Source of the DNA: Nannocystis exedens
GTDB taxonomy: Bacteria > Myxococcota_A > Polyangia > Polyangiales > Polyangiaceae
DNA: 39,538 nt
Direction of reading: 5' to 3'
Assembly (NCBI GenBank): GCA_945865595.1
Contig: CAMBEV010000003.1
Coordinates: 1-39,538 of the forward strand
Shown here: piece after piece, positions 14,888-19,505 of the stretch
Layout: the number at the start of each line of letters is the position of its first letter
Numbering within the stretch: position 1 is the first letter of the stretch
Program-made: the position numbers and the translations under genes
Notes under the pieces: generated by a model
Told to the model about the DNA's origin: nothing
The model's input: the letters and a program-made list of their open reading frames with translations, nothing else
Database searches by the model: none

Positions 14888-15892
14888 ATGATGCGCTCAC
14901 TCGAGTCACCGTGGACGAGCCGCCTCGAGTTGGAGAACGCGTTCCTCTCGCTGTGGGAGGCAGAGACCGCGGGGGCACCCTTCGGCCCGGGCATCGTGAG
15001 AGCCGCAGGCCTGTTGGTGGAGCTGCAAGCGCAGGCGTCTGGCTGTCCCGATGTTCTCGACGCGAAGGGGACCGCGCGGTGGTTGCGGACGGCCACACTC
15101 GACGCTTTGCCTCCTCGCTGTCTGCACCACATTGCCCTTTTTTGGTCACGCGTGCACCGGGTTGCATCCCGCCCGGAAGCCGGATGCTTGGCGATCTGCG
15201 CGTGGGCGGCCTTGGCGCATGAGCAACGGTATCTCGTTCACTTGCTTGACGACATGGGCGCGAACGAGGAGCAGCGCACCCAGGCGATTGACGAGATGGT
15301 GATCGCTCCGCTCGCTCTCGCAGGCAGGATTGCGGCTGAGTCGGCCGATTGCGCGGACAACGGGTTCGCGGCGGCGAAGCTCCTTGCGGACGCTGCAGGG
15401 TTTCCGCTCGAAGAGCCGTGGCGATCCCGGGTCGCAGAGGCTGCAGAGCGGGCCATTCACGAGGCCATCGCAAGGAGGCTCGACCCCTTAGAGGCGCAAC
15501 TGGGGATGCTCCCTCCGCCACCGGAGCTCGCTGAAATAGTCAAGAAAGTAGACCACACGTGGCGATGTTTTGGGCACCACGTCCGCGTGGAGCGGTTCAT
15601 TGCCGAGCATCTCGTTGATCCGGCTTGGCCCGTGTATCGTGCGCTCGCCGATATCGAGTTCCTCACGCTCATCGAGCCGCTCGAACTTCCCATCGACAGT
15701 TTGGTTCGGCGCATCGAGCGAGGCGAGGAGCTGTCGTTTCTCGCGGGTGCGGCCGACATGCTCGCGTTCTTCGCGTTCGCCCAGACCGACGACGGGGTCG
15801 CCGCCCCGATCTATCAGCGTATACTCAGGGTCTTTCCGACCCATAGCAACGCACAAAGGCGGCTTTCGGCTATCGCGGCGAGGCACGCATGA
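14888..15892 (+). CDS. helical protein of unknown function, first gene of the Hsp70 unit
   Basis: 334 residues (ATG 14888; an immediately following ATG at 14891 is equally possible). I do not recognise the family. The sequence is almost wholly alpha-helical, rich in Ala, Glu, Arg and Leu, without signal peptide or membrane segments. The last 35 residues, IYQRILRVFPTHSNAQRRL and beyond, look like one tetratricopeptide-type helix pair, so a protein-binding scaffold is possible. Its stop overlaps the ATG of the J-like gene as ATGA (15889-15892), which ties it to the chaperone genes. A TATCCT at 14878-14883 close to the start could be a -10 element with a near-leaderless transcript, but its -35 is poor. 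Inferred role: co-factor, client adaptor or client of the downstream Hsp70. Confidence 0.75.
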   Translation: MMRSLESPWTSRLELENAFLSLWEAETAGAPFGPGIVRAAGLLVELQAQASGCPDVLDAKGTARWLRTATLDALPPRCLHHIALFWSRVHRVASRPEAGCLAICAWAALAHEQRYLVHLLDDMGANEEQRTQAIDEMVIAPLALAGRIAAESADCADNGFAAAKLLADAAGFPLEEPWRSRVAEAAERAIHEAIARRLDPLEAQLGMLPPPPELAEIVKKVDHTWRCFGHHVRVERFIAEHLVDPAWPVYRALADIEFLTLIEPLELPIDSLVRRIERGEELSFLAGAADMLAFFAFAQTDDGVAAPIYQRILRVFPTHSNAQRRLSAIAARHA

Positions 15893-16173
15893 ACCCATTT
15901 GAACTCTTCGATCTCGATCCATCACTCGGCCTCGCCGAGATAACGCAACAGCTCCGCGAGCGGATGGAAGGCGCAGCGACCGAGGAGGAGCGGGACACCC
16001 TGCGTAGGGCGTGGGAGACTCTCACCCTCGTGCCGCAGGACCGCTTCCGGCTTGCCCTGTCGACGCCGCCCAGCTCGGGCGAGAGAGACGCGTCGCCGCA
16101 CTTCGAGTCCTCAAGAAACGGATTTGGGATTGATGTGCTCAATGAAATTGACTTTATTAACCTCTGCGAGTGA
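15889..16173 (+). CDS. J-domain-like small protein lacking the HPD motif
   Basis: 94 residues. Residues 2-60 resemble a J-domain outline: NPFELFDLDPSLGLAEIT as the entry and helix I, a second helix, then EERDTLRRAWETLTLVPQD as helix III, followed by RFRLAL like the conserved post-helix segment (D..R..YD in DnaJ). The loop tripeptide HPD, needed by classical J proteins to stimulate Hsp70 ATPase, is absent; the segment where it would lie reads QQLRERMEGAATE. A short linker and a distinctive hydrophobic/acidic tail, GIDVLNEIDFINLCE, end the protein. It overlaps the upstream gene by ATGA and its TGA directly abuts the Hsp70 GTG. I infer a degenerate or specialised Hsp70 partner; the resemblance is by eye and could be coincidental. 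Confidence 0.6.
   Translation: MNPFELFDLDPSLGLAEITQQLRERMEGAATEEERDTLRRAWETLTLVPQDRFRLALSTPPSSGERDASPHFESSRNGFGIDVLNEIDFINLCE
16130..16158 (+). promoter_or_regulatory. candidate internal promoter before the Hsp70 gene
   Basis: TTGATG (16130-16135) and TTTATT (16153-16158) are separated by 17 bases and each match four of six sigma-70 consensus positions. They lie in an unusually A/T-rich stretch at the 3' end of the J-like gene, 15 bases before the Hsp70 start. This could allow separate Hsp70 expression. The A/T-richness also encodes the conserved-looking tail of the J-like protein, so the match may be incidental. Confidence 0.25.
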
Positions 16174-18747
16174 GTGACCGCTATGCGCATCGACAGGCCA
16201 GTGGGCATTGACCTCGGAACCACCAACTCTGAGATCGCAGTTTTGGATCCCTCCGAGGCACAGATCCACCTCTACGTTGACCGGTTTGGCCGAAAGACGG
16301 TGCCCTCCGCGGTCGTCTATGACGCGAAGGAAGGCAAGTGGCTTGTCGGTCACGCGGCGCGTTCGAGGCGAGGGAAAGACCCTGCGCCCATCGAATCCAT
16401 CAAGCGCAAAATGGGTCAGCGAACGCTCGTCGACGCGGGAATAGGCCAGCAATCGCCCGAGGAAATATCGTCACGAATCTTGACTGAACTCGTCGAGAGG
16501 CTGCGCGAGCAACTGCAAGCGAAGACGCGGGAGGGAGTGACGGTGGCGGTGACCCGCGCCGTCATCACGGTGCCGGCCTACTTCGATGCGCCACAGGTGG
16601 AGGCGACCAAGCGCGCAGGCGAGATTGCGGGCCTTGAGGTCCTCGGCGTGCTTCAAGAGCCGACCGCAGCGGCGATGATGCACGTGTGGAAGCACGCCCT
16701 CGGCGATGGCAACTACCTCGTCTACGACCTCGGTGGTGGGACGTTCGACGTGTCGGTCGTGCGTGTTGTCGGGGGCGAGTACCAGGTGCTCGCGATCGAG
16801 GGCGACAACTACCTCGGCGGGGACGACTTCGACCGGCGCTTTGCCGAGTACATGCGCGATAAATTGTGCAAACAAGGTTACGATTTGAGCCTCGACGTGC
16901 TTGGCGATCGGGACGACGCTCGGCGATTTGTTGCGCTGATGTCGCTCGCGCAGCAGGTGAAAGAGTCGCTGACGACCGGGGAGTTTGTCCCCGTCTCACG
17001 CCAAGATGTGACCGTCGATCGCGCCGGTGAGAGCGTGAGCGTCGATTTTGAAGTGAGCCGAGAGAGTTACGAAGCGCTGATTGGCGACCTTGTCGACAAG
17101 ACCATGGCGTGTGCCGAAAAGGCGCTCGTGCAGTCCCAGGCGGCGGCCGAAGTCGGTATCGCGGACATCGACCGGATCATGCTCGTGGGAGGTTCGACTC
17201 GCGTTCCACTGGTGAGGCGAGCTGTCGAGAAGCTCGCGTCGTCGTGCAAAAACAGCGAAGTGCTCGCCGATGACGTGGACACGTCTGTTGCGCTCGGGGC
17301 CGCGCTCTATGCGGCCCAGCTCGGTGGCTTTCGCGTATCGACAGACAGTGCGTCGCTTTCTATTGTGACTCCACTTGTGACGAAGACGGACGACATCCGC
17401 ATCGGGGTTCGGTTTGAGCGTGTCCCCGATGGCTGCACGAGCGTTCGCGTCGAGACCGCCGACGCGCTGGTAGCGACCCTCGGTGGGCCGTTTGACCGCG
17501 AGAAGACCGAGCGCCTGACCATCGCCATGGGTGAGGCGAGTGAGGTCGCGATCGAGGTTGCGTTCATCAAGGGCCAAATATTGCTCGAGACGTTACAATT
17601 TGCCGTCTATCGGGGCGAGGCCAAGACGCGCGCCTCGGGGCTGTCTCGCCCGTCGGTGCTCGCCAAGGACATCTACCTTGAGGTCGCGCGCAGCGGGCGT
17701 CGCGATCGCAAACTCCTGATGGCCAAGGGCATGAGCCTTCCTGGGACGAGCGAGCACACTTTCGCCACAACCGATCAGAGTGGACTCGTTGTGCTGAGGT
17801 TGCTTCAGGGGCGCCTTCCGATCAAGACACTCGCGTTCGAGGTGCCAGCCACGCTTGTGGTCGGCACACAGGTATTGCTTCGCCTCAAATGCAGCGAGGC
17901 GATGTCGCTCGAGGCCGAGGCGATCGTCAGTGGCGCCAAGTTTTGGGCGCAGGTGGAGCCGGCGGAGCTCTCCCGTTTTCAAACCAAGCAGGACGTCGAG
18001 ACGCTGCTCGAGCGCGGTGAGCGCGCGCTTCACGAACGCGTGTCAAGCGACTTCGAGCGGCTCGAACTCAATGGGCTCGTTGTCTCGGTGCGCGAGGCCC
18101 TGCGCACCGATCCCGACAAGCTGGAATCGGTCGGCCAGCGCCTCTCTTGGCTACTCGATTCACTCGGCGATGGGGACGGTTCTGCGCTCTCGCCCCACCT
18201 CGATCGGTTCCTTGACGAGGTGGCGTTTGCTCGCTCTGTCGTCTACCGGAACCAGGGGACTGTCTTTGGCCTGTCGCGCGAAGATTGGGAAAGAAAGTTG
18301 ACCGCACTCGAGGGGCGGGGACGCGAGGCCTACTACGCCGAAGACGCGCCGATGTACAAGGACGCGAATCGCGAAGCAGAGGCTCTTCGGCGAACGATTT
18401 CACGGGCGGAAAGCGCGCAGACCGATATCGACGCGCCTGAGTACATTGCGCGATGGATCGAATCGCTTCAGGCCTACGGGCGTCGTGTGCGCGAGGCGCT
18501 GGGTGAGTTCGCAACCAGTGATTCGCCAGAGGTCGCGGCCGCGCAGCGTGCACAGCTCGAGGCGCTGCGCACGACAATGGCGCGTGATTTCGAGGGTCCG
18601 CTTTCTGCCATGCGCAACGAATCGCCCGTCGGTCGCATTGGAGCTCCGCTCGCGCGGCAGCGGCTCGCCGATCTCGAAACGGTAGCGGATCGCGCGACGC
18701 AGGCGCTCGAGCGCCTCGGGCGCCTTGGGCTTGTGGCGGATCGATGA
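16174..18747 (+). CDS. atypical Hsp70 chaperone (857 residues) with extra domain between ATPase and substrate-binding parts
   Basis: The nucleotide-binding domain (1-385) is fully Hsp70-like: phosphate-1 GIDLGTTNS (11-19), Lys77 in IKRKMG, VPAYFDAPQ, LQEPTAAAM, phosphate-2 DLGGGTFDVS (185-194, Thr190), and adenosine site MLVGGSTRVP (336-345). The usual DVLLLDVTPLSLG linker is not present. Instead about 125 beta-rich residues follow before LLMAKGMSLPGTSEHTF (514-530), which aligns by eye with DnaK's LIAKNTTIPT, and LRLLQGRLP with its HVLQGERP. This marks SBD-beta at about 512-615. The remaining 240 residues are helical and begin with a DnaK lid-like segment. DnaK has about 640 residues. GTG 16174 directly follows the upstream TGA; ATG 16183 is the alternative. 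The 3' end overlaps the next gene as ATGA. Client unknown. Confidence 0.9.
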   Translation: MTAMRIDRPVGIDLGTTNSEIAVLDPSEAQIHLYVDRFGRKTVPSAVVYDAKEGKWLVGHAARSRRGKDPAPIESIKRKMGQRTLVDAGIGQQSPEEISSRILTELVERLREQLQAKTREGVTVAVTRAVITVPAYFDAPQVEATKRAGEIAGLEVLGVLQEPTAAAMMHVWKHALGDGNYLVYDLGGGTFDVSVVRVVGGEYQVLAIEGDNYLGGDDFDRRFAEYMRDKLCKQGYDLSLDVLGDRDDARRFVALMSLAQQVKESLTTGEFVPVSRQDVTVDRAGESVSVDFEVSRESYEALIGDLVDKTMACAEKALVQSQAAAEVGIADIDRIMLVGGSTRVPLVRRAVEKLASSCKNSEVLADDVDTSVALGAALYAAQLGGFRVSTDSASLSIVTPLVTKTDDIRIGVRFERVPDGCTSVRVETADALVATLGGPFDREKTERLTIAMGEASEVAIEVAFIKGQILLETLQFAVYRGEAKTRASGLSRPSVLAKDIYLEVARSGRRDRKLLMAKGMSLPGTSEHTFATTDQSGLVVLRLLQGRLPIKTLAFEVPATLVVGTQVLLRLKCSEAMSLEAEAIVSGAKFWAQVEPAELSRFQTKQDVETLLERGERALHERVSSDFERLELNGLVVSVREALRTDPDKLESVGQRLSWLLDSLGDGDGSALSPHLDRFLDEVAFARSVVYRNQGTVFGLSREDWERKLTALEGRGREAYYAEDAPMYKDANREAEALRRTISRAESAQTDIDAPEYIARWIESLQAYGRRVREALGEFATSDSPEVAAAQRAQLEALRTTMARDFEGPLSAMRNESPVGRIGAPLARQRLADLETVADRATQALERLGRLGLVADR

Positions 18748-19505
18748 GCACAGGCCTGCGTGACCCAAGTCCCCACGTTCGGGCGACGGCGGTCGATGCG
18801 ATCGCGAAGCGTGGAGGCCACGATGTTCTGATGGCGCATGCGCGCAGGCTGCACATTCATCTCTCGCAGGCAGAGATCGATAGGCTCGCGGCTCATGGGG
18901 ACGGCAAGGCGACGCTTGCGCTCAAGCAGTTGATCGAGCGCATCGTTGCGGTGAAGCGCGCCCCCGCGCAGGCCGTTTCTGCGCTACGCGGGCTAGGAAG
19001 AATCGATTTCTCGATCGATGCCTGGCTCGCCTTCGCCAACGAGAGACCCATGCCTCGCAACGCGTCTCCAGACGGTACGGCGGCGCTGCTCGTGGAGTGT
19101 GTTCGCGAGCAAAATGAAGCCCGCTGTGCGGACGTAGTCAAGCTGGTGGACGATGTGCCAGTAAACCGTGTGACGGTGTTGCTCTGGACATCGCTCGGTC
19201 TGGCGCTTGGCCTGCCGCGCGTTTCGGGTGCCGCGGCGTTGATCGCGCAACGGTGGTTGGCGGACGATGACACGATTGTTCCCGTGCGTGGTTACATTTG
19301 GGCCGGGCAGCGGCTGCAAGCTGCAGGGGCTGACGCCACGCGCGCCTTTGAGTGTGCGATCTGGATGCGCGAACCGGGCGCTGAGGGTGCCCTAGCCGAC
19401 GAACTCTTGCGACAGGCCTGGCGCCGCCGAAGCGAGGGCGACGTGCGAGGAGCATTGGCGCTCGTACGTCGAGCGACAACGGCGGCAGGCGCGCTACGGA
19501 CCTGA
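18744..19505 (+). CDS. HEAT-like helical protein, last gene of the Hsp70 unit
   Basis: 253 residues, no signal peptide. Residues 7-25, DPSPHVRATAVDAIAKRGG, have the classic spacing of one HEAT-repeat helix pair; the rest is Ala/Leu/Arg-rich helix that might contain further, more diverged repeats. I recognise no enzymatic motif. It starts at an ATGA overlap with the Hsp70 stop, so it is almost certainly translated with it, and it ends the unit. Its last 12 bases overlap the end of the convergent metalloprotease gene. HEAT proteins usually provide protein-binding surfaces, so a role as adaptor or nucleotide-exchange-like cofactor is possible. That is inference; no similarity to GrpE or HspBP1 is claimed. 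Confidence 0.72.
   Translation: MSTGLRDPSPHVRATAVDAIAKRGGHDVLMAHARRLHIHLSQAEIDRLAAHGDGKATLALKQLIERIVAVKRAPAQAVSALRGLGRIDFSIDAWLAFANERPMPRNASPDGTAALLVECVREQNEARCADVVKLVDDVPVNRVTVLLWTSLGLALGLPRVSGAAALIAQRWLADDDTIVPVRGYIWAGQRLQAAGADATRAFECAIWMREPGAEGALADELLRQAWRRRSEGDVRGALALVRRATTAAGALRT

Follow-up and report, generated by a model that had tools for sequence, protein, structure and literature searches.

An HPD-less J-like protein and a divergent Hsp70 are encoded side by side in Nannocystis exedens and other Myxococcota

HPD-R167 signalling between J domain and Hsp70 is regarded as the trigger common to all Hsp70 machines. The mitochondrial protein Pam16 (Tim16) carries an HPD-less J-like domain linked to an Hsp70 system; its loop between helices II and III retains the usual length, and it acts within a membrane translocon as the partner of Pam18. 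In DnaK, the aspartate of the HPD motif contacts R167, the histidine contacts linker residue L391, and the J-domain signal reaches T199 by way of the linker (PMC13012618). D393 and D481 are the alternative pairing partners of R167, and interfaces between J proteins and Hsp70s are variable and co-evolving (PMC7289447). Closest in build to the protein described here is AtcJ of Shewanella oneidensis, a J protein of similarly small size that also ends in a C-terminal tail and is encoded in an operon with proteins that have no known domains; no Hsp70 gene is described in that operon, and AtcJ has a functional J domain with HPD and uses the general DnaK (PMC6715715).

The window analyzed is a stretch of 39,538 nucleotides from Nannocystis exedens (contig CAMBEV010000003.1 of assembly GCA_945865595.1) and all coordinates without a locus name refer to it. 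An open reading frame at 15889-16173 on the forward strand encodes a protein of 94 residues, MNPFELFDLDPSLGLAEITQQLRERMEGAATEEERDTLRRAWETLTLVPQDRFRLALSTPPSSGERDASPHFESSRNGFGIDVLNEIDFINLCE, noted in a preliminary description as J-domain-like but without HPD. Its ATG overlaps the stop codon of an upstream gene, here called U, in an ATGA overlap, and its own stop codon is separated by 9 nt from the ATG of an Hsp70 gene at 16183. Two orthologues within the genus share 54-59% identity with the J-like protein. Comparison with the L069 orthologue gave 30, 24 and 63 differences at first, second and third codon positions respectively, an excess at the third position that is expected of a protein under constraint. 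Beyond the genus pair, family members were present in approximately 45 further genomes. These observations confirm that the 94-residue reading frame is a real, conserved gene.

Matches to the family were confined to Myxococcota, as judged by a profile search within that phylum and by one short peptide pattern searched over 84,980 species beyond it. Relatives, the order and 379 genomes of the phylum together yielded approximately 53 distinct usable members, a set that omits L041 and L059, which have a wrong start, and L170, in which the contig end cuts the gene. The core consensus was NPFERYDLDPxxGPxAITERLRELAEDAxDExERxxIRAAWExLTLHPxRRLRAALxAHPE. Strong conservation was seen in helix III (AWE.LT) and in the turn between helices I and II (LDP..G...IT), with P11, I18, T19, R39, W42, L45, R52, A56 and P61 invariant across 29 aligned members. 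Searches of Pfam, NCBIfam, PHROGs and PDB sequences with single members and with the family alignment returned no matches, and none of 29 members matched the J-domain profile PF00226 at E<=1; the family is unnamed in any library searched.

AF2 modelling on the family alignment gave four helices in the order and with the lengths found in J domains, with a pLDDT of 84-89 across the block. All on the forward strand, these are helix I (residues 3-6, within NPFELF; 15895-15906), helix II (residues 15-28; 15931-15972), helix III (residues 32-47; 15982-16029), which bears the conserved R..AWE.LT signature, and helix IV (residues 49-58; 16033-16062), QKRAA-like and containing the invariant R52. Helices II and III are joined by a loop of only three residues (15973-15981), from which approximately 9-10 residues, those that bear HPD in J domains, are missing. 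Helix II is not basic: its net charge is -1 in the window protein and the family mean is -0.4, compared with +2.2 in J domains. Residues 61-94 were predicted to be disordered. The preliminary description had recognized the outline of helices I and III; the J-like fold stood, but the model contains all four helices. It had also proposed structure prediction against J domains as a check, and a Foldseek search of PDB with the model placed HscB (1fpo), Tid1, Thermus DnaJ and Sis1 near the top of the matches, all at E >0.2, with the Sis1 match superposing at 1.9 A over 62 columns.

Profile comparison gave a stronger signal. The core profile of the family scored 29.4 against a J-domain profile, compared with 9.1 +/- 1.8 for 100 column-permuted J profiles, and 31.7 against a profile of HscB J domains built from six sequences only, compared with 10.0 +/- 2.5 for permuted profiles and 10.7 for a helical decoy. 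Corresponding hhalign probabilities for the core against J domains were 82-85%, with scores about 9-11 SD over the permuted profiles. A narrower first comparison, using the 29-member full-length alignment and 8 J domains, had given a probability of 3%, and convincing homology came solely from the wider, core-only profile. Both the J-domain and the HscB alignments were collinear over all helices, with a gap of approximately nine residues at the HPD loop. It is improbable that the protein is not a J domain by descent and is instead an unrelated small helical Hsp70 cofactor, such as an exchange factor or an assembly subunit, whose J-like appearance arose by convergence: such an origin would fit the empty library searches and the non-significant Foldseek values, but not the collinear alignment with its gap at HPD, the distance from permuted profiles and a helical decoy that stays at background. 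From the profile comparison and the model we conclude that the protein descends from a J domain and has undergone deletion of the HPD loop. The closest J profile was that of the HscB type, and the NPFE start and the helix III-IV signature AW..L..HP..R are common to HscB/Hsc20 J domains and the J-like protein. In contrast to HscB, however, the J-like protein is 94 residues long with a disordered tail, lacks the HPD loop and the HSCB_C domain and adjoins a different Hsp70; a separate hscB is present in the same genome, and each genome can carry one. Kinship to HscB is a lead only.

In the alignment of homologues, which had been proposed as a check, none of the approximately 53 distinct members has HPD between helices II and III. 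Some members do have the letters HPD or HPE at other positions, either after helix IV (AHPE/DxR; AHPETR, AHPDSH) or in the turn between helices III and IV (LTLHPDDR). The form just after helix IV (AHP[ED]) is conserved in most Polyangiales members, for example L039, L042 and L048. Relocation of the motif was considered and rejected, as many Polyangiales carry HPE or HPD after helix IV but the window's genus has TPP and VPQ where its relatives have the displaced letters, and HPR is found elsewhere. A second family of HPD-less J domains was observed in the same genus (L241:2169-2369 in G000:C300, and L235, L236 and L238). Its sequence reads DYFALLGV..EASGHEIRRAYL.LRRTLEPARLP, with EPA, EPS or EPG in place of HPD and the loop length kept, within proteins of about 320-570 residues.

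In almost all loci the Hsp70 gene lies directly downstream of the J-like gene, an arrangement also seen by tblastn, and in most cases -4 to +98 nt separate the two. One clear exception to this tandem order is L126/L168 (G286), where the two genes are on opposite strands. When weak J-like matches above E=1e-4 were set aside, 40 of 379 genomes contained matches both to the J-like profile and to the C-terminal half of the partner Hsp70, a single genome (65% complete) contained the J-like gene alone, and two contained the Hsp70 alone (Fisher p ~1e-50, a value inflated by shared ancestry). The pair is flanked by genes for helical proteins, which across loci mostly have no Pfam match. Gene U (14888-15892, forward strand), the first of the cluster, encodes a helical, TPR-like protein of approximately 334 residues that matches no Pfam family; tblastn relatives stand at the corresponding position in the majority of Polyangiales loci, and a protein of approximately 410 residues is found in this position in other lineages. 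Downstream, gene D (18744-19505, forward strand) overlaps the Hsp70 gene by 4 nt and encodes a helical protein of 253 residues with HEAT-like repeats. D proteins of Polyangiales, that of the window included, formed a single blast cluster, and in other loci D reaches approximately 500 residues. The D protein of the window is shorter than that of L069 (378 residues), possibly through N-terminal shortening. In lineage f57 the gene order is clpP-clpX-lon-J-like-Hsp70-helical repeat (L167:1056-8514), an arrangement that assigns the pair to protein quality control, and lon also directly precedes the pair in L171:3419-7685. Gene order and sequence comparison support U, J-like, Hsp70 and D being a four-gene operon of proteostasis type.

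The partner Hsp70 (16183-18747, forward strand) is a protein of 854 residues that matched PF00012 (E=2.8e-73), and its AF2 model (mean pLDDT 86) matched DnaK in Foldseek (E=5.5e-39). As in DnaK-type Hsp70s (PF00012), an ATPase domain with all catalytic residues is followed by a beta substrate domain and a helical lid. In the AF2 layout the ATPase domain extends to about residue 381, followed by a beta domain at about 383-477, a second beta domain at about 497-591 and a helical region at 602-845. On the forward strand these correspond to the nucleotide-binding domain (16183-17325), an extra and poorly conserved beta domain (17329-17670), a domain resembling SBD-beta (17671-17958) and a lid-like region (17959-18744). 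Mean column identity is 0.71 in the second beta domain compared with 0.43 in the first. In a profile comparison with DnaK, alignment is regained at the second and better conserved of the two, weakly but in collinear order, from which we conclude that approximately 100 residues have been inserted at the place of the short linker of DnaK, ahead of SBD-beta. The VLLL linker itself has been lost.

Residues of the partner were mapped to a DnaK reference sequence whose numbering was checked by script; on this mapping R167, N170, R151 and D393 were each kept in none of 42 distinct partner ATPase domains. R167 is replaced by G, A or S, N170 by Q or H, R151 by V, I or M, and D393 by F, I, L or V; in the window protein, R151, R167 and N170 correspond to V139, G155 and Q158. 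D8, G10, K70, R71, P143, E171, T173, T199 and D201 are unchanged in 42/42 partners, and the catalytic residues of the window protein are kept. In the same genome, four canonical Hsp70s have all of the four residues that the partner has lost. R167 is missing as well from L134, another divergent Hsp70-like protein, and its loss is therefore not confined to the partner family. E206 is R or K in all 42 partner domains. A charge-swapped interface was considered and set aside: this substitution and the non-basic helix II would fit it, but the overall acidic patch is close to that of the canonical Hsp70s encoded in this genome. Together, alignment and modelling support the view that the receiver side of the HPD trigger is gone from the partner Hsp70 and that its ATPase site is intact.

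These results allow Pam16 to be reconsidered, as the preliminary description had offered it as a model. An HPD-less J-like protein beside an Hsp70 was indeed found, but the II-III loop is shortened here and full-length in Pam16, and the J-like profile scored 9.4 against a Pam16 profile made from only two sequences, compared with 7.6 +/- 1.6 for permuted profiles. A regulator of the Pam16 kind, which would pair with and restrain a canonical J protein and not touch its own Hsp70, is very unlikely. It would be in keeping with an HPD-less J fold in a genome that has canonical J proteins (8 PF00226 matches); however, there is no match to a Pam16 profile or Pfam family, the operon contains no gene for an HPD-bearing J protein, and strict linkage is to the Hsp70 itself, which is without the HPD receiver residues. 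Pam16 is at most an analogy, one that holds only for a J-like protein lacking HPD.

Our preferred reading, to which we assign a rough probability of 0.5, is that the protein is an HPD-less J-fold structural or adaptor subunit without HPD-R167 signalling and with a partner-binding tail. A J-domain-derived protein with a deleted II-III HPD loop would thereby serve as a dedicated subunit of the adjoining divergent Hsp70. Its J fold would dock on or tether the Hsp70, where the classical HPD-R167-linker trigger would be unusable, and it would act as an adaptor and not as an ATPase activator. The fold, the loss of HPD, co-inheritance, the loss of the receiver and the operon are supported by sequence comparison and modelling; docking, absence of stimulation and binding by the tail are what we infer from them. 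Loss of R167, D393 and VLLL from the partner makes the predicted non-stimulating docking more plausible. Rather unlikely, in our estimation, is that the J-like protein stimulates the ATPase by way of a re-engineered interface that has co-evolved and is independent of both HPD and R167. Full conservation of the ATPase residues, strict pairing and the strongly conserved helix III and helix I-II turn are all consistent with such an activator, and the coordinated change on the J-like and Hsp70 sides would fit a rewired interface. Against it, the published route from J domain to T199 (PMC13012618) passes through two elements that are gone here, HPD and the VLLL linker.

For the adaptor reading, the flexible tail would provide a short linear motif binding a partner, most probably either one of the helical proteins encoded in the operon or the adjoining Hsp70. 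This C-terminal tail, GFGIDVLNEIDFINLCE (residues 78-94; 16120-16170, forward strand), is predicted to be disordered, with a pLDDT of about 50-54. The preliminary description had called its DNA strikingly A/T-rich, and the measured GC content of 39%, compared with 64.5% in the rest of the gene, agrees; a value this low is reached in only 0.12% of the contig's 51-bp windows. Tail GC is 37-39% in two relatives of the genus, a recurrence indicating that AT-richness goes with the conserved residues. Conservation of the tail, another check that had been proposed, was found within the genus, where tails follow the pattern FxIDxIxxIDFINxxxE, but elsewhere amounted to a loose, weak D-phi-phi-x-x-P motif. 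Many tails outside the genus read LxLxDLxxxPS followed by a C-terminal DDPhL, and the strict form of D-phi-phi-x-x-P matched 31 of 53 tails, a count not controlled for chance expectation. Given a motif that is weak beyond the genus and a lineage in which lon stands in place of U, no tail partner common to all members suggests itself. AtcJ uses its last 21 residues to bind AtcC, a partner from its operon, with nanomolar affinity (PMC6715715), and this provides the best model for the tail. The J-like protein, unlike AtcJ, is without HPD.

A further reading, which we hold only tentatively, is that the two halves of the HPD switch disappeared jointly and something else took their place, so that the HPD-less J fold would be a constant adaptor of an Hsp70 whose linker has been rebuilt and whose cycle would be triggered otherwise than by a J domain. 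The bacterial pair is co-inherited across several lineages of Myxococcota, with a J fold and an Hsp70 that are both without the HPD-R167 elements and an ATPase site that is intact. It would offer a natural, cultivable test of the roles of J domains besides triggering hydrolysis, and also of the way in which an Hsp70 can go through its cycle when the canonical linker is absent.
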